Positions 19,301 through 53,849 of a DNA stretch of 53,849 nucleotides are shown in pieces. A program made the position numbers and the translations under genes. The DNA comes from Flavobacteriales bacterium (GTDB taxonomy: Bacteria; Bacteroidota; Bacteroidia; Flavobacteriales_D; Sanyastnellaceae): contig JAQWFN010000064.1 in assembly GCA_029238785.1 (NCBI GenBank), positions 1-53,849 on the forward strand, written 5' to 3'. Each line of letters opens with the position of its first letter. Within the stretch, counting starts at the first letter, position 1. The notes below the pieces were generated by a model, which was not told where the DNA came from, did not search any database, and saw only the letters and a list, made by a program, of their open reading frames with translations.

Positions 19301-21335
19301 TGTTCCCTGTGTAACAGCTGTTTCCAATCAACAAAGGGTATTTCCCTTGGTTGTCGTAGGTGGCCGGACTATCAATATTCACATCAAAGCCCGTGCTTGA
19401 AGCGTGTCCGAAAAAGGTCATCAAAGAAACTCCTTCTTCTATCAACAATTGTATGGAATCAGACACGCTGATTTGAATGGGGTCGGTGCTGCTTTTGTAG
19501 AACGAAAACACATCACCCCCAAAACAAACATCTTCCACAATGTTTTCATAGTTCTCTAAATAGCCTCGGAAAAGCGATTGCTCAAACTGGTTCCCCCCTC
19601 CACCAAAGTGCAGCACGTTCTTCATCCATTCTGCGCGCTCAGCACTTTCAAATTCCACCACTTTATTGAGGTAATCGAGCACGGCCTCATTGTCAACGGC
19701 GGAGAGTCTTCCGCTTGGAATTGCGGCTTCATACAAAGTGCCGTTCAAACCAGCGGTAAAAGCCAAATCAGATGTAGGGTGTCCGTAACTGGGCACCAAA
19801 TTACGAGCATACTTGTCTTCATTATTTCGCGCTCCCACGGTAGAACTGATGTTCATTTCATGGATGGATTTCCCTAAGAAAAACAGGTGGCTGGGCGCTA
19901 CTGGCCAGGTGTTCAGCAGGTCTTCACAGAAGCGACGAATGCTCAAGGGATGTTTGTAAATTCCTGCGGCATATTGATGGTACAATTGGTTCACATCCAC
20001 CACCACACAAGGCAAGCCGCTGTTGTTTTTATATGCGGCATAGTTGTTTGCGGAGCTGAAGAGTTTGGGGTGGGTGATGATTATCATGGCACTGTCCACT
20101 GGCGCACTCAAGTAGTTGGTGAAAAAAGCGCTAGAGCTTACCGGGTCGAGGTTAATTTCATTGGCGTAAAGCGACTCGTCGATGAGGAGCAGTTCTCTGC
20201 TGCTCGCACCTTCAAAAGGCACAATGGTCAGCAATTCTCCATTGTTTTCTGTGAGCGGCAATTCCCATTTAAAACCGTTTTGCTCTACCACGAAGCATCT
20301 TGGATTTGTTCCGCCAAAAGCGCTGATGTTCAAAAGTGCCTCGTTTCCTCCAGGGTTTTGAACCACGAATTCAGCCTTGTTTATCGCTCCAAAGTCGAGG
20401 TTTCGGGCGTAGGTAATTTCAATGTTTGAAATCACATGATAATCCGTAGCCACACCTAAATCGTCCACAGAGCGGTGACTGATGCGGGTAATGTTATCGA
20501 GGTTCTGATTGGGTAAATCAAAAGCAAAACTGTTGAGTTGATAGCCGTAGTAAACGGTATCGATCACCGGTATAAAGGTATTTCCATAACCTACTTGAAG
20601 GTGGTGGTTCCAAATTCCGGAAGCCAAAGAAGCACTTGCCGAAACGGCCTTCACTTTTGGAAATGGCGCGTTGTTGCCTTGATAAGCATTGGGTGTGGGA
20701 AGGTCTTTACTTCGGGTTTGTCCTTTTCCGAAGCGACTATCGTACCAACCTTCTGCCTCTTGATACCAGGGCAATGCAAAGCCGTTTTGATCTTGAACAC
20801 CGAAGAAATAGCCTTCGTGATAAGAGCCCAAACTGCGGCTCAAAACATAGCCGATTTGCGGCAGGGTTTCGATGGGCGTGGTGCTCGAATAAAGTGCTGT
20901 TCGTGCAAGATTCACTCCGCTTAATCGGGTGATGTAAACCCGCGCAGTGTCGTTAAAATTGCTGTAATGAGGGTTGTTCTGATCGCCAGGAGTTTGATAA
21001 ATCTCCCGGTCGAGCCAGCCGTCATTTTTCTGGACACGAAAAAGCACATAATCTCCTTGGTCAAAAGTTCCATCGCCCCCATCTACTATTTGAATGCGCT
21101 GAGCGCTCCCTCTCGAATAGACCTGCAGATCGGCACTGGAGAGTCCATTCACAGGAAAACCCGCATTCTGTAGTTGATTGTACTCCAAGCGTTGCACGCC
21201 ATCTTCCACCACTGGCAAGTGCCAATACTGCGCGTTGTAGTCGATCCACTCGTTACCTATTTGGCCCGAAGCGCTGAGCCCCAAGAAGAGCGCGCAAAAA
21301 AGAGGAAGTAAACAGGTTGCAAGTCGCATGGCCAC
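16306..21335 (-). CDS. PorU2-like T9SS sortase (C25 peptidase family), frameshifted near the 3' end
   Basis: A very large exported protein of about 1676 residues if one frameshift is corrected. A signal peptide (MAMRLATCLLPLFCALFLGL) is followed by the T9SS PorU N-terminal region and a C25 (gingipain-like) peptidase domain. The catalytic His is H644 in FFGHASSTG and the Cys is C674 in IGNSCYTG. After it come long beta-rich regions and a C-terminal FlgD/sorting-like domain (NYPNPFTTRTQF, then NGVYLYRV). The size and the central YAGCGGTPALHVAV region fit the PorU2 group rather than classical PorU, which is about 1150 residues. The frame breaks at 16733-16737: upstream codons end in KYRYLFRRKTRAG, while the other frame reads LVQAQDKSGNSSGDLDYTIDF and is clearly the true continuation. 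A one-base deletion explains it. Confidence 0.85.
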
Positions 21336-39104: not shown

Positions 39105-41705
39105 CTACTCTTTTACCCAGGGGAAGACCATCAAGTTTGAGGCATTGCGCAGGTGCAAGAAATACCTTCCTGCAGCTAAGTTTTTACTCGGAATGCTTTG
39201 AACACCTTTATGAATGCTTGTTTCCAGGACCTTTTCGCCCAGCATGTTGACCATCATCAAGTCAAATCCTTCTAAACCTTCTAGGATGAAGTAATCTTGA
39301 CCCGGATTGGGGTAGAGATTGACTCCAAACATTAGAGCTGCATCAATGCTGGTGATGAGGGTTTCAAAACTAAGTTCACAGCCCAAATCATCCGTAATTA
39401 GCGCCATGTAGCTGCCTGCCTCAAGATTGTTCAAGGTGAAGCTGTCTTCTCCTGTTGCCCAAAGAATTTCATAAGGAGGAAAACCACCACTTGGTTCAAG
39501 TAGAATACTCCCTCCTTGCTCATCGCTTTGTCCTAGTATTTCAGAACTCACACTTAAGACATCGAAAGGGTCCAGTTCAAGCTCAAACACAGCTTCACAA
39601 GCCGCTTCATCAGTCACCGAAAAGGAGTATTCACCGGGGATAACTTCATCCGCATCCAAACCGTTCCAATCCACTTCTAAACTTCCAGTTCCACCACTTT
39701 GCACGCCCAAAAACAGGGGTTCATAATTGCCATTGCAGTTGGGAACATACACCGGCAAGCTCGCCTCGATCTCAGGTGGGAAAAACAGGTTGAATTCAAA
39801 GCTTTGTTCGCAGTTCAAGGAGTCAATAACATCAACCATCAACAGTCCTTCACCAAGGTTGCTGATTGTATTCCCTGCTATCTCCTCGCCTTCAAAGAAA
39901 AGCCACTGACCTTCGATCAAGTCAAAAGTAATGCTCCCGTTATTGAGCTCGAAACAAGTGGGTTGGTTGAGTTCTGAACTTGGTGGCGTTGGTTCAAAAA
40001 AGTTGACTGCAATGGTGGGCGTTGTAGCTTCAATTCCCAGGGGGGAAATGGTATTGACGAAATACTCTCCCGCCGTTGTAATTGTAATTTCGTTGTTTTC
40101 ATTACCATTACTCCAAGAAACGAACTCATCAAGAGGATAGCTCAAATTGAGGCTTTCTCCAAGACATAGATTGTAGATTTGCTGACCTGGAATTGGGTTT
40201 GGAACATAGTTTTCCCCTTCCACAATCAACAAGGTTTCATTTGCTTCAAGATCAAACAAACGATCAACAACACCAGAAGGCCAACGCACAATAACACTGT
40301 CTACTTGAGCAGAAGTTCCTAGCCCAAAAAGGTTGGTATAACTGTTCTGTGCCAAATAATTGTCTCCACAAAAAGTATAGCGTCGCTGCAAGGTTCCATT
40401 CGTCCATAAGTCAATCCACGAGCCAATACCAAAACTATTGCTGATTGTTCCCGCGAGGTCAATCTTCAAATAATTGTTATCTCCTCCAGCGTTTTCATAG
40501 TACTTGAAGGTGTTTCCTATGTTTGACGTAAGCGCGAAGTCAACGTACCCGTCGTCATTGTGATCTCCAAGGGCGATGCAATGCGAATCAATGTTGATAT
40601 AATTTTCGAGCGCAGTGTTATCTATCTCAAAATAGTATCCACCCTCTTCACCTTGATTGATGAAAAGATAATCTTGCTCTTCGGGCTCAACTGGCCTATA
40701 TTCAGTAATGTACAAATCTAAATCGCCATCGTTTTCTACATCAATCCAAGCCGCACCCCAGGTCCATTTATTGAGAGCAACTCCAAACTCTTCAGCTACA
40801 TTTATAAAGGTCATGTCTTCTTGGCCCAAATAAAGAAAATTCGGAACATCTTCATTTAAGCCCGACAATGAATTGGTGAGATACAAATCGAGAATGCCAT
40901 CTTGGTTAAAATCACCCCAGGAAATCGTCATTGGATCAAAATTGAGCTCTATTCCTACATCATCTGTAATGTCTTCAAAAGTACCATCAGTGTTGTTGAG
41001 GTAAAATCGATTTCCAGTTGAACGGTCGTTGATTAAGAAAAGATCTGGATACAAGTCATGGTTCAAATCAATCCATGAAGCTTGAAATGAGAGGTCGTTT
41101 TCAGTAACTAAACCTGCCTCAGCTGAAACTTCTGTGAACTGAAAACCACCGTCATTTCTGTAAAACAAATTAGACCGTTGGGGCGATTGTAATCCATCAT
41201 AAACGGGTAAAAAAACATCTAAATCCCCATCGAGGTCGTAATCTGCCCATGTTGCTCCAGTATATTCTCGCAAATCGTTTTCAATACCCGAATTAAGCAA
41301 TCGATCTATCAGCTCCCCATCGTCGTTTCGTTCAAGCATGTCCAAATCACCTTCCGCACTCGTGGCGAAAAAATCCAAGTCGCCATCATTATCAATGTCC
41401 ACCCACATGACCGATTTTGGGAAAATATTTACCGACGAAAGAAAATCTTGTTCAATAAAGCCGGTACCATCAGAAAGACGAACACTAGGAGGTAAATTAG
41501 AACGGGTAAACGAGAGGTCGTCCAAACCATCTTGATTAATATCAACCATAGAGGCACCTCCTCCACCAATGTAAAAAGGCGTGTCGATGATAAACTCTAA
41601 GCCAAAATCATCGGTTCTATCAATGAATTGCTGGGCATTCGTCTCAAAAAGAAATAATCCAAAAAACAGAAAAAGACATTGCTGTCTCAAATTGCATGAG
41701 AACAT
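39105..41705 (-). CDS. FG-GAP/VCBS and ASPIC-UnbV surface protein with T9SS sorting domain (copy 1)
   Basis: About 866 residues with a signal peptide (MFSCNLRQQCLFLFFGLFLF). The first 370 residues form a beta-propeller of FG-GAP/VCBS repeats whose calcium loops read DINQDGLDD, DIDNDGDLDF, DYDLDGDLDVF, DFNQDGILDLY and DVENDGDLDLY. An ASPIC/UnbV domain follows (NYLKIDLAGTISNSFGIGSWI, RWPSGVVDRL), as in CRTAC1-like proteins. Then come beta-rich repeats and a C-terminal T9SS sorting domain (NLYPNPGQDYF to GRYFLHLRN). It is probably a surface adhesin or matrix-binding protein. The start at 41705 is preferred to 41729 because a -7 box at 41727-41734 overlaps the longer start. It is a tandem paralog of the next gene. 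Confidence 0.88.
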   Translation of the reverse strand: MFSCNLRQQCLFLFFGLFLFETNAQQFIDRTDDFGLEFIIDTPFYIGGGGASMVDINQDGLDDLSFTRSNLPPSVRLSDGTGFIEQDFLSSVNIFPKSVMWVDIDNDGDLDFFATSAEGDLDMLERNDDGELIDRLLNSGIENDLREYTGATWADYDLDGDLDVFLPVYDGLQSPQRSNLFYRNDGGFQFTEVSAEAGLVTENDLSFQASWIDLNHDLYPDLFLINDRSTGNRFYLNNTDGTFEDITDDVGIELNFDPMTISWGDFNQDGILDLYLTNSLSGLNEDVPNFLYLGQEDMTFINVAEEFGVALNKWTWGAAWIDVENDGDLDLYITEYRPVEPEEQDYLFINQGEEGGYYFEIDNTALENYINIDSHCIALGDHNDDGYVDFALTSNIGNTFKYYENAGGDNNYLKIDLAGTISNSFGIGSWIDLWTNGTLQRRYTFCGDNYLAQNSYTNLFGLGTSAQVDSVIVRWPSGVVDRLFDLEANETLLIVEGENYVPNPIPGQQIYNLCLGESLNLSYPLDEFVSWSNGNENNEITITTAGEYFVNTISPLGIEATTPTIAVNFFEPTPPSSELNQPTCFELNNGSITFDLIEGQWLFFEGEEIAGNTISNLGEGLLMVDVIDSLNCEQSFEFNLFFPPEIEASLPVYVPNCNGNYEPLFLGVQSGGTGSLEVDWNGLDADEVIPGEYSFSVTDEAACEAVFELELDPFDVLSVSSEILGQSDEQGGSILLEPSGGFPPYEILWATGEDSFTLNNLEAGSYMALITDDLGCELSFETLITSIDAALMFGVNLYPNPGQDYFILEGLEGFDLMMVNMLGEKVLETSIHKGVQSIPSKNLAAGRYFLHLRNASNLMVFPWVKE

Positions 41706-41726
41706 AAGCACATAAGTTAGGAATAA

Positions 41727-41734
41727 CAAAAATA
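41727..41734 (-). promoter_or_regulatory. -7 box TATTTTTG upstream of copy 1
   Basis: A perfect TAnnTTTG match on the minus strand, 21 bases before the ATG at 41705. The -33 element is not clear. It lies in the gap between the two paralogs, so copy 1 may be transcribed independently. Confidence 0.4.
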
Positions 41735-41797: not shown

Positions 41798-44416
41798 CTA
41801 ATTACTCACAGTTTTTATCCACTGTTTGTTGATGTGCACTTGTTCCCCAGCGAGTTCAAGAAAGTAGATTCCTTGCGCCCAGCGGTTTGTTTCAATAAAT
41901 ACCGCTTTATCTAGAATGATTGTTTCAAAAATCATTCTTCCTTGCGCATCCCTCACACGCAGGCGTGCATGAGCAGCATTGTTGATCACAAAACCATTTG
42001 TTCCCGGATTGGGATAAAGGTGAATGGCCTCATCGCCTCGCTCGCTTATTTGAGTAATGAGAAATTCCGCACTGCTTTCACAACCATTGGCGTCGGTAAC
42101 CACTACACTGTAAACACCTTCTTCTAAATCACCTGCACTTGTATCCCCTTCTGTATTGGTCCATTCAAAATCATAAGGCTCAAAACCCCCTTGAACATCT
42201 AAAACAATGCTTCCTAATCCATCATCGTTCACTCCAGAAATTGTTCCTGAAACACTCAGCACATCATAAGCTTCAAGCTCAAGACCAAAGGTTGAGGCAC
42301 AAGCCAAATCATCGATGATGTAATAGTTGTAGGCGCCCGGAGCAACATTATCGGGGTTAAACTCTCCCCAATTCACCGTAAGCTCTCCCGTTCCACCGTT
42401 GTGTAGCCCTTCGAACAACAATTCATAGCCCCCTTCGCAATTGGGAATGAATATAGGACCAGTGCTCGTAATTTCTGTGGCTTCTGTGAGTTCAAGGGCC
42501 ACTGCTTGTAAACAGCCAATACTGTCTACTACTTCATAAACCACTTCACCAGCTGCAAGGTTGCTGATGAGTTCTCCTTCAATCATTTCGTTTTGATATA
42601 TCAAGCTTTGCCCCTCGAGCAAATTCACTTGAACACTGCCATCAGCACCTCCAAAACATGAGATGTTCTCCACACTGAATTCTGGGACTTCTACCTCATG
42701 GAAAGCGACAGAAATAGAATTGCTCGGCAGTTCTTCATTCACGGCATTGGTGAAATTAGCCCAATAAGTGCCTGTTTCAGTGATGCTTATTTGACTTTCA
42801 AGCGTGCCATCACTCCAAGAAACAAAATTTGGGTGATCAAAACTCAAGTTAAGACTATCACCAACACAAAGATTATAGAAAGCTTCTCCTTCTAGAAATG
42901 GTATTTCAAAGGTCTCCCCCTCACTTAGAGTTAAGGTCTGGTTGATGTCTATATCATACCATCTATCAACAACTCCCGAAGGCCATTCTACAATCAAGCT
43001 GTCAACAATCTCAGCACTACCAAGCCCGAAAATTTTTGTGTAGCTGTTCTGCCCAAGATAGTTTTCTCCACAGAAAGTGTATTGCGTTTGAGCCTGTCCT
43101 TCCGCATAAGCGCTGATCCAAGAACCTACCCCCATGGTGTTGCTCAGTATGCCGCTCAAGTTCACTTTGAGAAAGTTATTATCCCCGCCTTGATTGACGA
43201 AATAGCGAAAGGGATCGCCTTGGTTTGTGGTAACACAAAAGTCAACGTATCCATCATTGTTTGGATCGCCAGAAGAAATTCCGTGACTATCAACAGGCAG
43301 GAAGCCTTCCAATAAAGCGTTGTTCTCAATAAACTGAAATCCAGATTCAGCTCCTTGATTCACGAAAAGGTGGTCGTCTAAATTGGGGTTTAAGGGCTGT
43401 GCCTCTGCAACGTACAAATCAAGGTCGCCGTCGTTATCGATGTCCATCCAGTTCGCTCCCCAGGTGAAAGTATTGAGCAATTTCAGGCCGTATGCTTCGG
43501 ATGCTTCTGTAAAGGTATTATCAGGCCCCCCAACAAAAAGCAAGGTTCCTAAGCTCGCGTTGAAGGTGACATTTGAGTTGGTAATGTAGATATCTAAATA
43601 AGCGTCTTGATTAAAATCTGCGCAAGAGATGGTCATGGCATCCATTACCACATCCATCCCCGAACTCTCTGAAATATCCGTAAACGTGCCGTCAGTATTG
43701 TTCAAATAGAACTTGTTGGGCATGTTTTTATCGTTAATCACAAAAAGATCAGGATACAAATCATGGTTAATGTCTAGCCATAGCGACTGAAATGAAAGGG
43801 CGTACTCCGCTTCCAAGCCGGCAACTGTAGTGACCTCTTCAAACTGAAAATTACCGTTGTTTCGGTAAAGGTGGTTGTTGTCTTCTTGGTTGCTGAAGTT
43901 CATCGAACCGTCATAAGCACAGAGATAAAGATCGAGGTCGCCATCAAGATCATAATCTCCCCAAGAAGCTCCATAGCTGTGGTGATTGCCGTTGATGATG
44001 CCGGAGTTGTTTATTCGGTTAATGAAGGTAAACGGACCAGTGCGTTCATAAAGATCAATGGCCTCTGTTCTTCTGGTGACAAAGCAATCCAAATCGCCGT
44101 CATTATCTATGTCTACCCATTGTATCGCTTTGGGGCTCGATGAGGCACTAACAAAAGAAGCGATGCCGCTAAAGCCTGTGGCTGTGCTCGTGAAAAAAGA
44201 AGGTAACTGCTGATGGCGGAGGTACGTTAAATCATCTGTTCCATCCATGTTAAAATCAACCATGCTGCATCCAGCTCCAAAAAGATTGAAGCTTTGCGGC
44301 GTATGCGCAACACCTAAATTGATCGACTGTTCCAAAAACTGTTGACCAAGTATTGCTGAGGGCATAAGCAGATACAGCAAGGCAGCCAAAGCCCATAGGC
44401 GACTTCGAGATAGCAT
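41798..44416 (-). CDS. FG-GAP/VCBS and ASPIC-UnbV surface protein with T9SS sorting domain (copy 2)
   Basis: An 872-residue protein with the same order of parts as the downstream gene: a signal peptide (MLSRSRLWALAALLYLLMPS), a propeller with acidic loops (DFNMDGTDD, DIDNDGDLD, DYDLDGDLDLY, DFNQDAYLDIY), an ASPIC/UnbV domain (NFLKVNLSGILSNTMGVGSWI, EWPSGVVDRW), repeats and a T9SS sorting domain (HLYPNPGTNGF to YFLELAG). The two proteins are alike along their whole length, so they arose by tandem duplication. Both keep the cysteine in FCG(E/D)NYL. This copy is upstream and may be transcribed first. The ligand is unknown. Confidence 0.88.
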   Translation of the reverse strand: MLSRSRLWALAALLYLLMPSAILGQQFLEQSINLGVAHTPQSFNLFGAGCSMVDFNMDGTDDLTYLRHQQLPSFFTSTATGFSGIASFVSASSSPKAIQWVDIDNDGDLDCFVTRRTEAIDLYERTGPFTFINRINNSGIINGNHHSYGASWGDYDLDGDLDLYLCAYDGSMNFSNQEDNNHLYRNNGNFQFEEVTTVAGLEAEYALSFQSLWLDINHDLYPDLFVINDKNMPNKFYLNNTDGTFTDISESSGMDVVMDAMTISCADFNQDAYLDIYITNSNVTFNASLGTLLFVGGPDNTFTEASEAYGLKLLNTFTWGANWMDIDNDGDLDLYVAEAQPLNPNLDDHLFVNQGAESGFQFIENNALLEGFLPVDSHGISSGDPNNDGYVDFCVTTNQGDPFRYFVNQGGDNNFLKVNLSGILSNTMGVGSWISAYAEGQAQTQYTFCGENYLGQNSYTKIFGLGSAEIVDSLIVEWPSGVVDRWYDIDINQTLTLSEGETFEIPFLEGEAFYNLCVGDSLNLSFDHPNFVSWSDGTLESQISITETGTYWANFTNAVNEELPSNSISVAFHEVEVPEFSVENISCFGGADGSVQVNLLEGQSLIYQNEMIEGELISNLAAGEVVYEVVDSIGCLQAVALELTEATEITSTGPIFIPNCEGGYELLFEGLHNGGTGELTVNWGEFNPDNVAPGAYNYYIIDDLACASTFGLELEAYDVLSVSGTISGVNDDGLGSIVLDVQGGFEPYDFEWTNTEGDTSAGDLEEGVYSVVVTDANGCESSAEFLITQISERGDEAIHLYPNPGTNGFVINNAAHARLRVRDAQGRMIFETIILDKAVFIETNRWAQGIYFLELAGEQVHINKQWIKTVSN

Positions 44417-44482: not shown

Positions 44483-45388
44483 CTATTCCTGAATGGCAGC
44501 CTGAAGCAATAAGGTCATGCTATCGCATTCCGCCCCATATTTTAAATGATGTGGATCGCGAAAAGCGCTTTGAGGAAAAGCCGCATGAAAATCCAAAATG
44601 GGCACGGATTGGCCCTTAATTTGGAAGGTGTTTGTCACCAATTGATAATGTTCTTCTGGATCAAAACATTCACTCTCACTGAAAAAATAATGCGCGGTAA
44701 CAGGAAAGCGCACCATGCTTAATTTACAATTGTGTTTCTCGCACAGCTGGGTGATTTTGTCCATGTAAAATCTACCATAATCGCTTATTTGCGCTTGTAA
44801 ACAACTGTCTGTAAGGCTTCTTGTTTCATCGCCACTCAATGACTTGATTTTCGCAAAAGCACGTTCTTTTGCCCGTTCTTTGCTCTGCTCAGTGGCGAAA
44901 TAATAGTCCATCACGTCCTTTTCTCCGTCTTTATATGGAAACAAGGTGTTGAGTAAGCGATGCATACTGAAATCGAGCGGCTTCTCAGTAAATTTTGAGA
45001 GCTCACTCTCGTTCACAAAGCGGTTCCAATAGAACTGATAGCGGGTGTGCTCCAGGTTCTCTGCTCTTAAAGTCATGAGATCACAAGGAACAATCACCTG
45101 CTCAACCTTGCGTTCTTTTACGTCCAACAAGTGCTGCAGCTTGTAATAAGTCTGATGCAAGCATTCTCCCGAAGTGGACATGTTGTAACACCCCTCCCAC
45201 AGCTCCGGATTGATGCTCATGGCGTGAGAATTCCCTATAACTAAGACATCCATTTCAGCAGGCAAAGTCTGGAAATAGCGGTCGCTTTTAAGCAAACTGC
45301 TTTCACTCATTACCCGAGCATACCAAATGGTTAAGCCTGCATGAATGCTAAGAAAGATAAAGCCCAGTATGAGTAGTTTCTTGCCCAT
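44483..45388 (-). CDS. Membrane-anchored SGNH/AlgX-type protein
   Basis: A 301-residue protein with an N-terminal membrane anchor (residues 4-22) and a periplasmic SGNH-like domain. The nucleophile motif is VIGNSHAMSINP (S54) and the catalytic Asp-His pair is in FRDPHHLKYG (D278 with H280 or H281). This fits the acyl-transfer partners that work with MBOAT membrane enzymes (AlgI/AlgX, DltB/DltD). The start is 2 bases after the MBOAT gene stop at 45391, so the two form an operon. It probably transfers an acetyl or other acyl group to an exported polysaccharide or other envelope polymer. Confidence 0.75.
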   Translation of the reverse strand: MGKKLLILGFIFLSIHAGLTIWYARVMSESSLLKSDRYFQTLPAEMDVLVIGNSHAMSINPELWEGCYNMSTSGECLHQTYYKLQHLLDVKERKVEQVIVPCDLMTLRAENLEHTRYQFYWNRFVNESELSKFTEKPLDFSMHRLLNTLFPYKDGEKDVMDYYFATEQSKERAKERAFAKIKSLSGDETRSLTDSCLQAQISDYGRFYMDKITQLCEKHNCKLSMVRFPVTAHYFFSESECFDPEEHYQLVTNTFQIKGQSVPILDFHAAFPQSAFRDPHHLKYGAECDSMTLLLQAAIQE

Positions 45389-45390
45389 AT

Positions 45391-46770
45391 CTAGAACTGG
45401 AAATAGATGAAAGGTGCGGCATTATCGGCAGCAAAAATAACGATACTAAAAAACACGAAAGCATAATACACTGCTCTCAAAGTAAAGGCAGGCCTTGGCC
45501 AATTCCAATTGGTCCAAGCGTCTTTCAAGAAAAGTACAGCAATAAAGACCATCGCCAAGATAACATGAAGCTTGCTGATACCGGTTTTAAGCAGGTCGTC
45601 GATGAAGACTTGGAGTCCGCCAAAATCAGCAAAAGAAGCGATGATGTCAAAGGCATCATTTACGGTATTTGCTCTAAAGAAGATCCAAGCAAAACAAGCC
45701 ACTAAAAACGTAAACGGTGTTGTTATCCAAGGAGAAATATTTCGTTTTGGAAGCACCTTTTCAGCCACAATAAATCCTCCATGAATGGCACCCCAAATCA
45801 CAAAGGTCCAATTGGCTCCGTGCCACAGCCCACTCACCAAAAAGGTAATAAAGAGGTTGTAGTACCACCTCCATTTCACACCTCTATTCCCACCTAAAGG
45901 AATGTAAACATAATCCCTGAACCACTGGGAAAGGGTGATGTGCCAACGGTGCCAAAAATTGCTGATGTTGTGTGCAAAATATGGGGTGTTGAAGTTTTGT
46001 CTGAGCTGAACATTAAAGCATTTAGCTATGGCCAAAGCCATATCAACATAACCCGAAAAATCACAATAAATCTGCACGGCAAAAAGAACGCTTGCAAAGG
46101 CCAAAATTCCTCCGTGATAGGCATTAGGTTCATTGAATACGGGATCAACAATAAGGGCCAAACGATCTGCAATCACCACCTTTTTAAACAAGCCCCACAA
46201 AAAGAGTTTCCCTGCCGGTATGAGGTAGGCGGTTTTAAATTGAAGCTCATTGCGCAGTTGGTGCATGAGGTCTTTGGCACGTTCTATTGGACCAGCTACC
46301 AGTTGCGGGAAGAAGCTCACGAAGAGGGCAAAGCGACCAAAATGCTTCTCCACTTTGGCCCTACCATGATACACGTCGATGCTGTAAGACATGGTTTGGA
46401 AGGTGTAAAATGAAATGCCTACCGGGAGGAGCAAGTGAGTGAGGGCCAAGTTGCTTGAAGAAAGGCTGTTGACACTCGAAATGAAAAAGTCGAGGTACTT
46501 GAAGACGATGAGCAAAGCGAGGTTAGAAAACATGCTGACTCCCAAAAAGAGCCGTTTTCTTTTCTGGTCTGAGCTGGCCTCCATGCCTCTTGCGCAGAGG
46601 TAATCTACGATGGTGGAGCCCAGGATGAGCAAGATATACTCCCATTTCCACGACATGTAAAAGGTATAACTGGCAATGAGGAGCACGAGCCACTTCCATC
46701 TGCCGGCAAAGGCAAAAACAAAGAGCACCAATGGAAAGAAAAGTAAAAACTCAAATGAATTGAAGAGCAT
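45391..46770 (-). CDS. MBOAT-family O-acyltransferase (AlgI-like)
   Basis: A 459-residue multi-pass membrane protein of the AlgI-type MBOAT family, beginning MLFNSFEFLLFFPLV as usual. Conserved regions are QLVAGPIERA (near residue 150), the invariant active-site histidine H317 in SGLWHGANWTF, and the FWHRWHITLSQWFRDYVYIPLGGNR block. It brings acyl groups across the inner membrane for an SGNH partner, which is the next gene. The start at 46770 is the family start; the in-frame ATG at 46839 would run over the terminator of the upstream lipoprotein gene. The target polymer is unknown, as no biosynthesis cluster is in the window. Confidence 0.9.
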   Translation of the reverse strand: MLFNSFEFLLFFPLVLFVFAFAGRWKWLVLLIASYTFYMSWKWEYILLILGSTIVDYLCARGMEASSDQKRKRLFLGVSMFSNLALLIVFKYLDFFISSVNSLSSSNLALTHLLLPVGISFYTFQTMSYSIDVYHGRAKVEKHFGRFALFVSFFPQLVAGPIERAKDLMHQLRNELQFKTAYLIPAGKLFLWGLFKKVVIADRLALIVDPVFNEPNAYHGGILAFASVLFAVQIYCDFSGYVDMALAIAKCFNVQLRQNFNTPYFAHNISNFWHRWHITLSQWFRDYVYIPLGGNRGVKWRWYYNLFITFLVSGLWHGANWTFVIWGAIHGGFIVAEKVLPKRNISPWITTPFTFLVACFAWIFFRANTVNDAFDIIASFADFGGLQVFIDDLLKTGISKLHVILAMVFIAVLFLKDAWTNWNWPRPAFTLRAVYYAFVFFSIVIFAADNAAPFIYFQF

Positions 46771-46837
46771 TCCTAGCTTTGGCTTGAAGGTGATTGGGCT
46801 CAAAGATAAGCGCTTGTATTGGATGAAAAAAGCGGAC

Positions 46838-46866
46838 ATAAAAAAGCCCCGATTAAATCGAGGCTT
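46838..46866 (-). terminator. Terminator of the acidic lipoprotein gene
   Basis: On the minus strand a 10-bp stem (within 46844-46866, one U-G wobble, 3-nt loop) is followed by a run of six T. It lies 20 bases after the lipoprotein stop and separates it from the MBOAT gene. Confidence 0.8.
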
Positions 46867-47240: not shown

Positions 47241-50200
47241 TTAAACTCCTTCAAAATCTAAGGGTAAAATAATCGTTACTTCAGTGCCTTTCACCGCTCC
47301 GGCCTCATCCCTAAGCTCAAGAGGACCAATTAATTCCACGTTTTTATTGGTCATCTTTTTTATCAGTTCTATGCGTCCGCTGGTGATGGCCATTCCTTTT
47401 GAAATGTGGTCTTGATCTTCTGATTTGTTATTTAAACTGGTCTCAATTCCAATACCGTCATCGCTAATTCTCAGGGCTACCCTTTGGTCTTCGCGACGAA
47501 TATCTACGATAATTCTACCTGGGGCTTCTTTGGGCAAAATGCCATGCCAAATGCTGTTTTCGAGAAAGGGCTGAAGCAGCATTGCGGGCACCATAATGAC
47601 GGAAGGATCAAGTTCTTCGTCGATGTCGATTTCATAGTCAAACTTCTCTTTGAACCTCATTTTCTCCAAGCCGAGGTACAGTTCTAATCGTTCTATTTCT
47701 TCTTGAAGTGTGGTGAGGTTGTTTTGAGAACTATCTAGATTTTTTCTGATGAGCTTCGCGAAGCTGCTCAAGTAGCGGTTGGCACTCAAACGGTCTTGCC
47801 TGTTGATGTAATATTGTATGGAGTTCAGCGCATTGAAGATGAAGTGCCTGTTCATGCTCGAATTGAGGGTTTGCTGCTCCAAGGCGAGCATCTTAGAACG
47901 GTATTCAAACTTCTCCTTTTCTAATTTATTGAGTAAGGATTTTCTTCGCGAAGCTGAAATAAGATAAGCCACACCTCCAACGAAAATAAGCTCAAGAAGG
48001 ATGAACCACCAACTGAGCCAAAAAGGAGGAAGAATGGTAAATGCAAAGCGCTTAACTTCACTCGACCTTCCAAAACGATCGATGGCCTTCAATTCAAATA
48101 CATAGTCTTCAAAATCAAGGTTGCTGTAGGTCACGAAGTCCATTTCTGTGCTTCTTTCCCATTCTTCATCCAAGCCAAGCAAGCGGTATTGATAGGTGAG
48201 CTTGTCTGGATCAGACAAAGACAAGCCATCAAAATAAAAACTCAAATGATTGTCTTGATGCGGAAACACCACCTCTTCTGGCCAGGCGCCATAGCTTTGA
48301 ATTTCTTTCTTGTATTTCTTCCAATCGGGGTCTTCCAAATTCACGCGTACTTCGCTGATTTGAACCAAGGGTTGGCTGAGCGCCCGTTCTGAAGCAAGGG
48401 CCTTTAAATCGAGGCGAACGAGTGCTTCACTTGTGCCGAAGTACAATTCATCTTCATTTAAAAAAGCGGAGTTTTGATTGGTTTCGAGCACGCTCAAACC
48501 GTCGTGTTTGCCAAAGCTTCTCCACTGCTCATCGCCTTGAAGCAGGGCCTCAATGTTCGACGCAAAAAGGAGTCCGTTATTGGTTCCTAACCACACGCCT
48601 TGAGCTTCATCAAATTGAATGAAATTGATGTGGTTGCTCCCAAATCCTCCGGGTATTTGCAAAACGCTGATGGACCCGTTTTCGATGATGCTCAATCCGC
48701 TCTCAGTACCAATCCAAGCCCTTCCTTTTTCATCCAAAGCCAAGCAATAAACGCTGTTGTCTGGCAAGCCTTCTTCTTCTCCAAAGTGTTGTAATTCCTC
48801 ACCGTCCCACACATATACACCGCGATTACTGGCGGTCCAAAGCACCCCGTTCTGATCAAAAGCAATGCTCCTCACTTTCACTTCTGGAATGGCTTCAAAT
48901 ACTTGGATCTCTTCGTTTTCATCCAAAAAACACAAACCTCTAGCGGTACCGATGTACAATTTGCCTTCGCGCTCTTCAAGCGAAAGCACTTGGTTGTGGG
49001 GCAAACCATTGGCTGCGGTCCAATAACGGGCTTGATCTGGATTGGTGAAGAGTCCGCCAGAAGAACCGAAAAACACGGAACCGTCTGCTCTCAGAATGCT
49101 GCACCAGATACGGGTGTTTCTCAAGGTGCCTGTTCGTGCATCATTCCAATAATTCAACCAACGCCCTTCAGCGCTTTTCATGCTTAAGCCGTTGTCGTAA
49201 GTAGAAAACCAGGTGTTGTTGTTTTGGTCTTTGAGGACGTCCATAACGATGTTGCCCGAAATGCCGTCTTCAGCGGTAAAGGTGCTGAAGGCCCTTCCGG
49301 TGAATTTCTGAATGCCGGCCCCGTTGGTGCCAATCCAGATGTTGCCTTCGCGGTCTTGAATTACGGCCCGCACATCATTGGTGGCCAAGCCTTCACGGTC
49401 GGTATACACCTCTAACAAACCATCGGTATTGACATGAAAGAGTCCGTCTCTGCTCTTGATCCAAGCTCCATCATCGGCCACAAAAACACCTGTAAAATTC
49501 AAGCCTTCGCCCAGCAAGGGATTGTCTAAACGTTCCAAAATTAAAGGTACTTTGCCCCGCGCTAAAATGGATTTTTGATCTACCAGCATTAAGCCTTTGC
49601 CGATGCTTGTCAAAAGCAGGTTTCCTTCTTGATCGAATTCGGCATCCATCAAACTTCCGCCGAGTTCGCTGCTGGATATGAGCTCACGGAAATCTTCATT
49701 TTCCCAGAGGTAAACGCCCGATTTGGCGCAAATCAAAAAGCCTTCACCCAATTTCAAAATGCGCTTGATGTGCAACCTTTCCTGATTCCACTCGTCAAAA
49801 ATAATCGAGTAAGTTGCTCGCTCATAGGCCAACAAACCGTGCTCTGTTCCCACAAGCAGCCTGCCCTGATCTTCAAGGATGTGATTCACTTGTACCGATT
49901 CAAAGGGCTTGGGGAAGGGCGCTCGTTGAAATTTTTGTCCGTTATAAATGGTGAGTCCGCCAATACTTCCAAACACCAAATCGCGGTTACTCTTTTGCAC
50001 AATAAAGTTCACCTGGTTGTTGAGCAGGCCGTCTTGTTTGGAGAAGTTTTTGAATTGCTGACCGTCGAAGCGACTCACCCCACCAAGGGTTCCGATCCAT
50101 AGGTAGCCCATGTGATCTTGCTCGATGTTGCGCACTTGACTTTGTGCAAGGCCTTCCGTTGTTGACCACGATAAGAAGCCAAAATGCTGAGCTTCGGCAA

Positions 50201-50249
50201 CAAGCGCGGCGCACAAAAAGAGGAGAAGAAGACTGATTTTATGACTCAC
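47241..50249 (-). CDS. Propeller-type sensor histidine kinase (LytS/His_kinase family)
   Basis: A 1002-residue sensor. It has a signal peptide (SHKISLLLLFLCAALVAEAQ), then about 600 residues of Reg_prop beta-propeller repeats (YLWIGTLGGVSRFDG, NIWIGTNGAGIQKF, RAWIGTESGLSII), a Y_Y_Y domain (YQYRLLGLDEEWE) and one membrane helix (about residues 740-765). The cytoplasmic part is a LytS-type kinase with the phosphorylated histidine H802 in NRHFIFNALNSIQ and an ATPase domain (PFLENSIWHG, ISDDGIGI). The periplasmic propeller probably senses a carbohydrate or envelope signal. It starts at GTG (50249), whose bases overlap the stop of the upstream regulator gene (GTGA), so the regulator and kinase are translationally coupled. 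Confidence 0.92.
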   Translation of the reverse strand: MSHKISLLLLFLCAALVAEAQHFGFLSWSTTEGLAQSQVRNIEQDHMGYLWIGTLGGVSRFDGQQFKNFSKQDGLLNNQVNFIVQKSNRDLVFGSIGGLTIYNGQKFQRAPFPKPFESVQVNHILEDQGRLLVGTEHGLLAYERATYSIIFDEWNQERLHIKRILKLGEGFLICAKSGVYLWENEDFRELISSSELGGSLMDAEFDQEGNLLLTSIGKGLMLVDQKSILARGKVPLILERLDNPLLGEGLNFTGVFVADDGAWIKSRDGLFHVNTDGLLEVYTDREGLATNDVRAVIQDREGNIWIGTNGAGIQKFTGRAFSTFTAEDGISGNIVMDVLKDQNNNTWFSTYDNGLSMKSAEGRWLNYWNDARTGTLRNTRIWCSILRADGSVFFGSSGGLFTNPDQARYWTAANGLPHNQVLSLEEREGKLYIGTARGLCFLDENEEIQVFEAIPEVKVRSIAFDQNGVLWTASNRGVYVWDGEELQHFGEEEGLPDNSVYCLALDEKGRAWIGTESGLSIIENGSISVLQIPGGFGSNHINFIQFDEAQGVWLGTNNGLLFASNIEALLQGDEQWRSFGKHDGLSVLETNQNSAFLNEDELYFGTSEALVRLDLKALASERALSQPLVQISEVRVNLEDPDWKKYKKEIQSYGAWPEEVVFPHQDNHLSFYFDGLSLSDPDKLTYQYRLLGLDEEWERSTEMDFVTYSNLDFEDYVFELKAIDRFGRSSEVKRFAFTILPPFWLSWWFILLELIFVGGVAYLISASRRKSLLNKLEKEKFEYRSKMLALEQQTLNSSMNRHFIFNALNSIQYYINRQDRLSANRYLSSFAKLIRKNLDSSQNNLTTLQEEIERLELYLGLEKMRFKEKFDYEIDIDEELDPSVIMVPAMLLQPFLENSIWHGILPKEAPGRIIVDIRREDQRVALRISDDGIGIETSLNNKSEDQDHISKGMAITSGRIELIKKMTNKNVELIGPLELRDEAGAVKGTEVTIILPLDFEGV

Positions 50250-51004
50250 AATTCGGCAATTCGTTCGAGAAAAATAGGCAATTTCCTGCGAGAGATTGGA
50301 ATTTCTGTGTTGTCGCTCATCACGGCGATGTTTCCATCGGTTCTTTTAAATTCTGTGAGGTGATGGGCAAAGTTGATGATGTGCGAACGGTGAGTTCTAA
50401 AGAAAACACGCTCGCTCAATTTGTCTTCAAAGAGCTTGATGTTCTTACTGGAGACGATCTTTTTGTTGTTGATTAAAAACACCGTGGTGTAGTTATCATA
50501 AGCCTCCAAATGAATGATATCTTCGCTTTTCACAATGGCCAATCCGTCGCTCGTTGGAATGGCTGTTTTTTCTGAGGTGATGGACGAGAGGAGCTTGTCG
50601 ATTCTTGCATCGGTAGATTTCGCTCCTTGTTTTAGGGTGATGAACTCCTTCGCTTTGGCCACCGCACCTTGGAGGTCGTCGATGTTGATGGGCTTTTCGA
50701 GGTAATCTACTGCTTGAACTTTTAGGGCCTTCATGGCGTGTTCGCCGTGGGCGGTGGTGAAAATCACGGCGAATTTGCGTTGCTTGTAATCTTCAAGAAA
50801 GGCAAAACCGTTTTCGCCCGGCATCATGATGTCGAGAAAGACCAAATCCGGACTGTATTCTTCAACAAGTGTTCGGGCCTCTTTTGCGTTGGCGGCGAGG
50901 GCGAGAACTTCTACTTCCGGACAAAATTCTTCCACCAGCATTTGAAGGTTTTCTCGGGCTAGGGCTTCATCATCGATAATTAAGGCGCGCATTCTTTCGG
51001 GCAT
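50246..51004 (-). CDS. LytTR response regulator (coupled to the sensor kinase)
   Basis: A 252-residue response regulator. The receiver domain (residues 1-120) has the acidic pocket IIDDE, the phosphorylated aspartate D58 in LVFLDIMMP and the switch lysine in LEKPINIDD. The DNA-binding LytTR domain (about 155-252) includes IIHLEAYDNYTTVFL and FFRTHRSHIINF. The start at 51004 (MPERMRALIIDDE) is chosen because it aligns exactly with the paralogous regulator; 50992 is possible. The gene's stop overlaps the kinase start by 4 bases. It is the likely direct partner of the kinase. Confidence 0.92.
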   Translation of the reverse strand: MPERMRALIIDDEALARENLQMLVEEFCPEVEVLALAANAKEARTLVEEYSPDLVFLDIMMPGENGFAFLEDYKQRKFAVIFTTAHGEHAMKALKVQAVDYLEKPINIDDLQGAVAKAKEFITLKQGAKSTDARIDKLLSSITSEKTAIPTSDGLAIVKSEDIIHLEAYDNYTTVFLINNKKIVSSKNIKLFEDKLSERVFFRTHRSHIINFAHHLTEFKRTDGNIAVMSDNTEIPISRRKLPIFLERIAEL

Positions 51005-51118: not shown

Positions 51119-51907
51119 CTAGGCTTCTTTTACCCTTTTTAAAAAGTGTTGAAGTCGGGCACGCGCAATAGGAACATGATCGCCATTACTCATCTCCGCG
51201 CTTGCCCCATCTTGATTGTCGTAGGCTACCAGGTGGTTTAATTGGATGATGTGCGACTTGTGTATCCGACAAAAATCCTGGCTCCCGAGGAGTTCTTCAA
51301 AGGTCTTGAGGGTTTTGGTGTCGATGTAACTCGATCCGTCTTCAAAATGAATGAGTGTGCAGTTCCCTGCAGCTTCGAGTCGGACAATTTCCTTGGTTTT
51401 GGCAATTCGAAAGCCTTTTGAATGGAAGAGCGTTAAGCGTTCAGGCGTGCGTGTTTGGTTTTCACTGGCCGCATTGGGCACCCGTTTTACGCCTTCAAAA
51501 TAGGTGTCAAAAGCCGACTTATCTTGATGGAAAAACTGGGCATATTCAAGGAGTTTTTTTGTGGCCGAAAGCAGGTCGTCAATGTCAATGGGCTTCAGGA
51601 TGTAGTGCACCGCATTGGTTTGAAATGCCCTGATGGCGTAGTCTTTAAAAGCCGTTACGAAAACGACCTGAAACTTGGGGTTTTCAATGGCTTCGATCAA
51701 ATCAAAACCTTCTGCTCCAGAGGGCATTCTGATGTCTAGGAAGAGCACATCGGGATTTAAGGCCTCAATTTGTTCCTGTGCTTGTTTTGGTCCATCAGCC
51801 AAACCCACCACTTCCAATTCGGGACAAAACTCCTCAATCAGCATGCGGAGGTTTTCCCGAGCGTGGAATTCATCATCAACAATTAAAGCGCGCAGGGCTT
51901 GACTCAT
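51119..51907 (-). CDS. Second LytTR response regulator, paralog of the kinase partner
   Basis: A 262-residue response regulator closely related to the next gene: both have ALIxDDEx(3)ARENLxMLxEEFCPE. The phosphorylated aspartate is D58 in VLFLDIRMP, and the switch lysine is in YILKPIDIDD. A LytTR domain occupies about residues 160-262 (IVRLEAAGNCTLIHF, FCRIHKSHIIQLNH). The start at 51907 is supported by a -7 box at 51911-51918, which lies inside the longer alternative (51922). A 114-base gap separates it from the coupled regulator. It may share the same kinase or respond to another. Confidence 0.9.
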   Translation of the reverse strand: MSQALRALIVDDEFHARENLRMLIEEFCPELEVVGLADGPKQAQEQIEALNPDVLFLDIRMPSGAEGFDLIEAIENPKFQVVFVTAFKDYAIRAFQTNAVHYILKPIDIDDLLSATKKLLEYAQFFHQDKSAFDTYFEGVKRVPNAASENQTRTPERLTLFHSKGFRIAKTKEIVRLEAAGNCTLIHFEDGSSYIDTKTLKTFEELLGSQDFCRIHKSHIIQLNHLVAYDNQDGASAEMSNGDHVPIARARLQHFLKRVKEA

Positions 51908-51918: not shown

Positions 51919-52002
51919 GCACAGAATTTCGAGTGCGCTGTAACCTCTTGGGAAAAGTTGCCGTAAATGCTGACAGCCAAATCTTACAAAAACGAAATAC
52001 TT

Positions 52003-52260
52003 ATGCGACTATTCAACTTTTTTAATCGTCCGAAACTTTATCTCACACCAGATCAACAGTTCTTGGAGGTGAGTTACCAGCCGCAGTCTGAAAAGCCTTT
52101 GTACGACATTTGTGACGAGTCTGGCCGCATCATCAAAACAGGAAAAATCACCCGAGACAACATGCGTGTGGCGGTAGCTGATTTATTCAGTTCTGGCTAC
52201 ATCTTTTTGATTCTCGATGGCGACGAGATCAGGCAGCAGCGTTTTAAAATTTCGAGATAA
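52003..52260 (+). CDS. Small stand-alone T9SS-sorting-domain-like protein
   Basis: An 85-residue protein beginning MRLFNFFNRPKLYLTPDQQF. Its strand order and spacing resemble the type A T9SS sorting domain: a first strand (LEVSYQP), a central YDICDESGRIIKTGKI hairpin like the usual YNTLGQLV segment, and a C-terminal SSGYIFLILDGDEIRQQRFKI, like SGIYFLKI plus the basic end. The YPNP start motif is missing (LYLTPDQ instead). There is no signal peptide and no passenger domain, so it should stay in the cytoplasm. It may be a domain-capture relic or a protein with a new role. An upstream ATG at 51967 exists but adds nonconserved residues. It is transcribed towards the aspS 3' end. Confidence 0.65.
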   Translation: MRLFNFFNRPKLYLTPDQQFLEVSYQPQSEKPLYDICDESGRIIKTGKITRDNMRVAVADLFSSGYIFLILDGDEIRQQRFKISR

Positions 52261-52276: not shown

Positions 52277-53849
52277 TTACTCCTCCCCTGCTGTGCTTTC
52301 TAAAAACAGTTCATCGAGCTGTGTTTGGTCAATTGGTGCTGGTGCATCAATCATCACATCTCTACCACTGTTGTTTTTCGGGAAGGCGATGTAATCTCTG
52401 ATGGAGTCGCTTCCACCAAACAAACTGCACAAACGATCGAAACCAAGCGCGATACCGCCGTGAGGAGGTGCTCCGTATTCGAAAGCGTTCATCAAGAAAC
52501 CAAATTGAGCTTGTGCTTCTTCCTTGGTAAACCCAAGCAAATCAAACATGCGTTGCTGTATTCCACGATCGTGAATACGAATAGAACCACCACCAATTTC
52601 AGTTCCGTTAATCACCATGTCGTAGGCGTTGGCCTTTACTTCACCCGGGTGTGTTTCTAATTGACCCAATTGCTCTGGTTTAGGCGAGGTGAAGGGGTGG
52701 TGCATGGCATGGTAGCGCTCACTTTCTTCGTCCCATTCAAGCAAGGGGAAATCCAAGACCCATAGTGGAGCAAATACTTTTGGATCGCGCAATCCGAGCT
52801 GGTCGCCCATGTGCAAACGCAATTCGTTCATTTGCTTGCGCACTTTGGCTGTTTCACCCGAAAGTATCAAAATCAAATCGCCTTTTTCCGCGCCGGCATG
52901 TGCAGCCCAAGCGGCAAGGTCTTCTGGGGTGTAAAATTTATCAACGCTCGACTTGAAACTGCCGTCTTCATTGCACTTGCAATAAACCATTCCTTTGGCG
53001 CCTACTTGTGGACGCTTCACGAAATCGGTGAGGGCATCGAGTTGTTTTCTGGTGTATTCTGCAGCGCCTTTAGCCACGATACCTACTACTAGTTCAGCAT
53101 CATCAAAAACTTGAAAGCCTTTATTTTGAGTGAGGGCATTCATGTTGACGAACTCCATTCCGAAGCGGATATCTGGCTTGTCTGAACCGTATTTCTCCAT
53201 GGCATCGTCGTAATACATGCGCGGGAAATCCTGAATTTCGTGGTTCAACACTACTTTGAACAAGTGGCGCACCATACCTTCGAAGGTGTTGAGGATGTCT
53301 TCCTGCTCCACGAAGGCCATTTCGCAATCGATTTGCGTGAATTCTGGCTGACGATCGGCACGCAAGTCCTCATCTCTGAAGCACTTCACAATTTGGTAGT
53401 AACGGTCGAAACCAGAAACCATCAACAACTGCTTGAAGGTTTGAGGCGATTGGGGAAGGGCGTAAAACTGACCCGGGTTCATTCTACTTGGCACCACAAA
53501 ATCGCGCGCGCCTTCTGGTGTTGATTTGATCAAGTAAGGCGTTTCTACTTCGATGAAGGAGATGCTATCGAGGTACTTGCGGGTTTCGATGCTCAGGCGG
53601 TGACGCAGCATGAGGTTATTCATCACCGGCTTGCGTCGCAAATCCAAATAGCGGTATTGCATGCGCAGGTCGTCGCCCCCATCGGTTTTGTCTTCAATGG
53701 TAAAAGGTGGGGTTTTACTTCCGTTGAGCACTTCGAGTTGGCTCACCAAGATCTCGATATCGCCCGTTGACATGTTGTCGTTTTTACTTGAGCGTTCGAT
53801 CACTTCCCCTTGGATTTTAATCACAAACTCTCGTCCCAGCTTTCGCGCT
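52277..53849 (-). CDS. aspS: Aspartyl-tRNA synthetase (5' partial)
   Basis: A class II aminoacyl-tRNA synthetase that charges tRNA-Asp, with 523 residues visible; the frame runs off the right end, so about 60 N-terminal residues (part of the OB-fold anticodon-binding domain) are missing. Visible motifs are the end of the OB fold ([12 protein letters not shown]), motif 1 (RYLDLRRKP), motif 2 ([18 protein letters not shown]) and motif 3 ([14 protein letters not shown]). The bacterial-type insertion domain lies between motifs 2 and 3. The gene is convergent with the small sorting-domain-like gene, 16 bases apart, without an obvious terminator between them. Confidence 0.96.

Follow-up and report, generated by a model that had tools for sequence, protein, structure and literature searches.

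The gene at 52003-52260 of the window, by which we mean the whole 53,849-nucleotide stretch of DNA analysed here, is a real gene and a member, under selection, of a separate family of free-standing proteins; it is no fragment. As judged from profile comparisons, its 85-residue product is homologous to the C-terminal sorting domains (CTDs) of the type IX secretion system (T9SS). To our knowledge, sorting domains are known as export tags that terminate secreted proteins. A CTD descendant that is conserved, stands free and has no signal peptide indicates that the fold is reusable, probably inside the cell, and it may provide a handle on how envelope-protein production is coupled to signalling in flavobacteria not covered by the PorXY-SigP model. 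None of the literature matches listed, among them PMC7712824, PMC8265659 and PMC4800418, describes a CTD family whose members stand free and lack a signal peptide.

The frame lies on the forward strand and comprises 85 codons, from an ATG at 52003 to a TAA at 52260 (product MRLFNFFNRPKLYLT...RFKISR), which bears out the coordinates and length given in an earlier note made from the sequence alone. Its annotation as a free-standing CTD-fold protein without a signal peptide draws on the frame, an alignment of homologs, sequence profiles and a structural model. A second in-frame ATG upstream, at 51967, would yield a protein of 97 residues; because the promoter-like CGTA described below ends at 51965, this ATG would lie ahead of the probable transcript start. 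In the nearest relative (L002), the gene's own frame has no Met upstream. On one side the gene is flanked by a divergent LytTR response regulator (51119-51907, reverse strand; Response_reg and LytTR domain matches), whose start at 51907 is 95 bp off, followed by a second LytTR response regulator (50246-50986, reverse strand; the same two domain matches) and a histidine kinase (47241-50249, reverse strand) with matches to Reg_prop propeller repeats, Y_Y_Y and His_kinase. On the other side is a convergent gene (52277-53824, reverse strand) with its stop at 52277, which is called aspS in the earlier note only. The link to aspS made there does not hold, as orthologs adjoin this gene in two genomes only (G000 and G001); it is not a conserved neighbour and the neighbourhood is incidental.

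Taken alone, the 52003-52260 protein has no Pfam or NCBIfam match, even at E 10, and when the family profile is compared with just one of the window's CTDs the probability is no more than 10.4% (E 0.003); the likeness to CTDs is therefore demonstrable only profile against profile. When 25 free-standing homologs (alignment A1) were compared with 29 CTDs of the window's own genome, hhalign returned a probability of 96.8% (E 2.4e-10), against 0.2-2.9% for five column-shuffled versions. The match spans family columns 11-85 and columns 2-76 of the 77-column CTD profile, which upholds the end-to-end likeness that had been proposed by eye in the earlier note. The 29 comparison CTDs are those among the 30 best TIGR04183 loci that show the YPNP-type motif, and its presence in 29/29 of them is thus by construction. 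A CTD HMM found 23 of the 25 members at E <=0.0013 and the other two at 0.027 and 0.071 (Z=3000), while the best of 1000 shuffled members reached E 0.33; in the reverse search, with the family HMM, 9/29 CTDs scored below E 0.01. Published models match at E<=1 in 19/25 members for PF18962 (Por_Secre_tail; best 2.8e-5) and in 16/25 for TIGR04183 (best 1.5e-4). Searched against PDB sequences, the A1 profile has a single match at E 0.001 (5jvk_A 514-581), all others being at 0.06 or above. Most remote matches of the family profile fall in long frames; the ones read (L026, L028 and L030) end in plain CTDs.

An AlphaFold2 model based on a 16-sequence alignment (pLDDT 91.9, pTM 0.81) has seven strands, the first of which starts at residue 11. 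In a VIA-align comparison the mirolase CTD (8qb1_A) ranks first with Z 10.3, rmsd 2.0 and 74 aligned residues, and the C-terminal part of PorZ, residues 683-776 (5m11), ranks second with Z 10.1, rmsd 2.5 and 82 aligned; the CTDs of NucA (Z 8.9, rank 11) and RemA (Z 8.6, rank 33) follow. DUF3244 reaches Z 9.8, and many Ig and FnIII domains are close, within 1-2 Z units of the CTDs. Foldseek gives DUF3244 and a biofilm protein as top matches and the mirolase CTD as the seventh. The comparison with known structures that the earlier note had proposed thus comes out in its favour, in that the predicted model superposes on CTDs. The predicted fold agrees with that of a CTD, the proof being in the sequence profiles, as the fold alone is insufficient.

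These close DUF3244 and FnIII scores, together with the lone protein's lack of any family match and the 10.4% obtained with a single CTD, would fit an unrelated small Ig-like domain that has converged on the look of a CTD, which is close to the unrelated small beta fold considered in the earlier note. We regard this as very improbable, since the profile alignment is full-length and shares D38, G41, L61 and Y66, and the CTD HMM separates the members from shuffled sequences. The remote matches in mostly long frames, with plain terminal CTDs where read, also argue against convergence.

Five CTDs in the window exceed the TIGR04183 cut-off, not the four counted in the earlier note; the fifth is the end of a PorU-like protein (16306-16692). 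The PorU-like gene (16306-21335, reverse strand; Peptidase_C25), the C-terminal end of which matches a T9SS sortase model, is split into two frames near 16690, and this split may be an assembly error or a real frameshift. Two adjacent CTD-bearing proteins of 874 and 872 residues (39105-41729 and 41798-44416, reverse strand) are clearly similar by eye and are apparently tandem copies of one T9SS cargo gene. The segment at 44483-46839 (reverse strand) holds by eye an MBOAT-type acyltransferase and then a secreted SGNH-like protein; the two might form a pair for polysaccharide O-acetylation.

In a sample of 399 genomes of the order, 94 genomes had a match at E<=1e-6. Twenty-seven matches scored at least 81 bits, and their frames all measure 84-142 aa, whereas the next match, at 48.4 bits, was in a 471-aa frame; orthologs in related genomes, which the earlier note had suggested looking for, are thus present. 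A 28th member (G092, 30.8 bits) was assigned from its location, flanked by the regulator and by a downstream gene common to other members. Two frames below the score gap and without the signature motif (Cys or Ser), G069:C24 (115 aa) and G085:C72 (116 aa), were left out. Within the order, the members are spread over five families (f1, f2, f4, f8 and f11). Eighteen loci came up when named genomes were scanned; their titles read Flavobacteriales, Bacteroidetes or Cryomorphaceae with the exception of two MAGs titled 'Chryseobacterium gleum' (L129) and 'Verrucomicrobia' (L141). Across a phylum sample of 395 genomes, family-level scores were obtained only in G000 and G006, and 8 further genomes had matches that scored 30.7-38.8 bits, the frames being 161-1090 aa long. 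Loci L138-L141 carry more distant free-standing members with a D[IL]CD signature, the start codon or the membership being doubtful in L140, where a late TTG (69 aa) is the sole start, and in L141, which has none.

The dN/dS analysis that the earlier note had proposed revealed purifying selection, with values of 0.02-0.03 in close pairs (G032/G013 0.033, G025/G006 0.018); the two pairs pooled hold 23 synonymous versus 2 non-synonymous changes (p 1e-12). Distant pairs, in which synonymous sites are at or near saturation, gave 0.07 (G000/G001) and 0.17 (G032/G002), and for G016/G042 the ratio was not computable. Of the 'evolutionary fragment under selection' suggested in the earlier note, the selection stands and the fragment does not, given 28 members in five families and a conserved promoter. 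On the same three grounds, a decaying, untranslated or non-functional remnant of what was once a T9SS cargo gene is almost certainly the wrong explanation, even though the gene is short and has no passenger.

The features that mark exported CTD proteins in the earlier note's account are lost throughout the family. No signal peptide was seen by eye in the 25 members, and N-terminal hydrophobicity, a crude score over a 10-residue window, is at most 1.37 in 25/25 against a threshold of 2.0. None of the 25 members has PNP within its first 25 residues, in line with the lost YPNP start, and a passenger is likewise missing, the whole protein having 85 residues and its relatives being in frames of 84-142 aa. 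From the absent signal peptide, the protein is probably cytoplasmic.

The alternative is export by an unrecognised route, whereby a free CTD, situated either periplasmically or on the cell surface, would act in PorA-like signalling. PorA (PGN_0123) of P. gingivalis is a CTD protein that acts on the PorXY-SigP pathway (PMC7712824), and the propeller repeats of the neighbouring kinase would, from their domain type, be expected outside the cytoplasm; members in the window's family also have a short aromatic N-terminus. We consider this route doubtful to the point of being improbable, as all 25 members lack a hydrophobic stretch over the threshold and a signal peptide recognisable by eye, the YPNP motif is lost, and PorA has another domain besides its CTD.

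Residues Y25, D35, C37, G41, G47, L61 and D72 are invariant in 25/25 A1 members, and D38, Y66 and G73 are present in 24/25. Apart from the four positions shared with the aligned CTD, a set comprising Tyr25, Asp35, Cys37, Gly47 and Asp72 was probably gained in the free-standing family. At Cys37 the aligned own-genome CTD has Leu, and the divergent syntenic member G092, which is outside A1, has Ser. Such residues could belong to a small cytoplasmic protein that responds to redox state or to metal, with Cys37, Asp35/Asp38 and the Asp72-Gly73 turn as its working site and CTD ancestry as mere history. The conservation of Cys37 in every aligned member, where the CTD has Leu, and the Cys also found in L138-L141 favour this reading, which we nevertheless judge unlikely in view of the Ser in G092 and of invariant columns that contain neither a second Cys nor a His.

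An ECF-sigma-like promoter, TGTAAC-N17-CGTA, is located at 51939-51965 (forward strand), 37 nt ahead of the ATG; it is the sole match to the motif in the window and is kept upstream of orthologs. From its likeness to the SigW-type consensus, we take the general form TG(T/A)AAC-N16/17-CGTA to be of ECF type. It was found upstream in 14/26 non-redundant regions under a strict definition and in 21/26 under a relaxed one, the 26 regions being the 30 read minus 4 near-duplicates. By comparison, 300 dinucleotide shuffles gave a mean of 0.01 strict (maximum 1) and 0.22 relaxed matches (maximum 2), and the opposite strand of the 26 regions gave none of either kind. The distance from the end of CGTA to the ATG is 25-47 nt in the strict matches and 69 nt in the relaxed match of L009. 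Outside the 26 regions, the motif is present by eye in G496 and absent in G092. The 52003-52260 gene appears to be transcribed alone from a conserved ECF-sigma-type promoter of its own.

Genome-wide, the window's own genome has 9 promoter sites versus 17 for a reversed control, that is, no excess; six members of the window's family have 48 sites versus 28 for a form with one more C, and 4 of the 48 belong to the free-standing CTD family itself. The own genome also has 17 sigma-70/ECF matches over the cut-off, which may include sigma factors of other kinds, and one PglZ protein in a 556-aa frame, PorX-like by its PglZ domain. Scanning of 15 sigma loci gave 4 relaxed motif matches, none of them reading towards the sigma gene, and an autoregulated ECF gene was rejected for these loci. 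Identity with the SigP motif is not supported: the P. gingivalis motif printed in PMC4800418 looks different by eye from TGTAAC-N-CGTA. No description of the TGTAACC-CGTA promoter class was found among the literature matches listed.

Fifty-six motif sites were read in seven genomes, or 52 after leaving out 4 of the free-standing CTD family. A gene of at least 100 aa starts 10-70 nt past the motif at 24/52 sites. A hydrophobic N-terminal stretch, taken as a rough proxy for a signal peptide, is found in 20/24 of these genes (some of which are orthologs of one another) versus 77/194 neighbourhood genes (p 5e-5), and in 0/25 members of the free-standing family. The promoter motif goes with exported proteins, and it points to a class of promoter ahead of such proteins, TGTAACC-CGTA; a more specific tie to T9SS cargo is no more than suggested. 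The CTD profile matches 8/34 motif-linked proteins, of which 4 are cut frames whose matches are scattered repeats and not CTDs, and the best match in L216 is internal. Among 26 complete motif-linked proteins, a C-terminal CTD is clear in 2 (L206 and L219) and weak in 1 (L212), which weakens the candidate of a T9SS-cargo regulon. This thin tie slightly lowers the odds of our best explanation and of the domesticated-CTD reading, both given below.

By BLAST, the motif is common to orthologous exported-type proteins across genera (L152/L162/L170, L154/L157/L196 and L181/L185/L191), these sets being a large repeat protein, a protein of about 897 aa with a terminal CTD in its G000 copy (L219), and a protein of about 2000 aa. 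Orthologs that share the motif hint that a regulon of envelope proteins may be conserved. The motif TGTAACC-CGTA also precedes, by eye, signalling genes at L164 (G007) and at L169 and L186 (G016); by eye these encode a response-regulator-like protein, another with a shared '[YF]EF.LRQ.LLS' end, and an Hpt-like protein, which would put signalling genes into the putative ECF regulon.

A protein with a retained CTD fold and a promoter class common to exported proteins, a few of them with CTDs, might serve as the decoy or chaperone-binding element considered in the earlier note, binding the cytoplasmic handlers of CTD proteins before Sec, or parts of the T9SS motor, and so tuning the flow of cargo. 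We think this quite unlikely. The conserved residues are largely other than those of CTDs, 393/395 phylum-sample genomes, counted irrespective of their T9SS content, have no family-level match, and CTDs are known to be recognised periplasmically and at the outer membrane, with no cytoplasmic recognition known.

In 17 of the 28 members (15/25 of A1, together with G496 and G092), the gene has a LytTR regulator as its immediate divergent neighbour. G044 has only a piece of the regulator at a contig end and G032 a regulator frame with one stop; the regulator is 6-10 kb off in G074, G089 and G070, and 31 kb off in G042. The recurrent LytTR neighbour is usually paired with a histidine kinase. Among 61 genomes of the window's family, 12 have both gene and regulator, 2 the gene only, 2 the regulator only and 45 neither, with a p of 4e-9 that overstates the evidence, related genomes not being independent. 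The corresponding counts in the other 39 genomes are 8, 4, 17 and 10 (p = 1), so that gene and regulator can each exist alone, and the association within the window's family could stem from joint loss in small genomes. Nineteen genomes have the regulator without the gene; no degenerate gene copy was found beside the regulator in 18 of these loci, with 2.7-3.7 kb read in each, and in the 19th (G041) the contig ends after 520 bases. The link between gene and regulator is strong in the window's family, frequent in others and not obligatory. For the LytTR gene, a conserved promoter of housekeeping type was considered and rejected, TAnnTTTG being present in only 2/11 loci with a placed start. In L018, a 26-residue LytTR-like stretch is kept.

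Our best explanation, held tentatively and at somewhat less than even confidence, is that the 52003-52260 gene encodes a free-standing, likely cytoplasmic protein of one CTD fold, with its own ECF-type promoter, that works as an adaptor or feedback element of an envelope or secretion circuit. Fold, family, selection and promoter come from computation, while location, partner and action we infer. The protein would have retained the CTD fold and shed the parts needed for export, namely the signal peptide, the passenger, the YPNP start and mostly the Gly of GxY. An ECF factor that turns on envelope and surface genes would cause it to be made in the cytoplasm, where its conserved face (Asp35, Cys37, Gly47 and Asp72) may bind a signalling partner. 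The adjacent histidine kinase/LytTR pair would be the most economical candidate, other candidates being an ECF factor, an anti-sigma factor and a PorX-like protein, and the outcome would be an adaptor or feedback element tied to envelope-protein production. A related but rather unlikely reading is that a T9SS CTD was domesticated as a cytoplasmic signalling protein, a CTD mimic induced by an ECF factor along with surface proteins and reporting the state of secretion or of the envelope to the divergently encoded propeller-kinase/LytTR system.

The family resembles several known systems without coinciding with any of them. With the T9SS type A sorting domain (PF18962 / TIGR04183) it shares whole-length profile homology, a predicted seven-stranded Ig-like fold, and the D..G(K/R), Leu and Tyr core positions; unlike CTDs, which end exported proteins, its members are free-standing with no signal peptide by eye, and GxY, present in 29/29 CTDs, contrasts with a Gly two before Tyr66 in 4/25 members. 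DUF3244 of Bacteroides (3sd2, 4g5a and 3d33) likewise comprises small single-domain Ig-like proteins (Z 9.8), but its profile is absent from the 11 families matched at E<=1 by the 25 members, and DUF3244 proteins are known to bear signal peptides. PorA, as described in PMC7712824, is similar in that it carries a CTD and is tied to both a two-component system and an ECF factor, which makes it a precedent for signalling by a CTD protein, yet it is located at the surface and has a FimH-like domain, whereas here a lone CTD fold stands beside a propeller kinase and LytTR regulators. PorXY-SigP regulation is similar in joining a two-component system to ECF-type control, and the own genome has its one PglZ protein; it differs in that the regulators here are of LytTR type and in that the printed SigP motif (PMC4800418) does not look like the one here.
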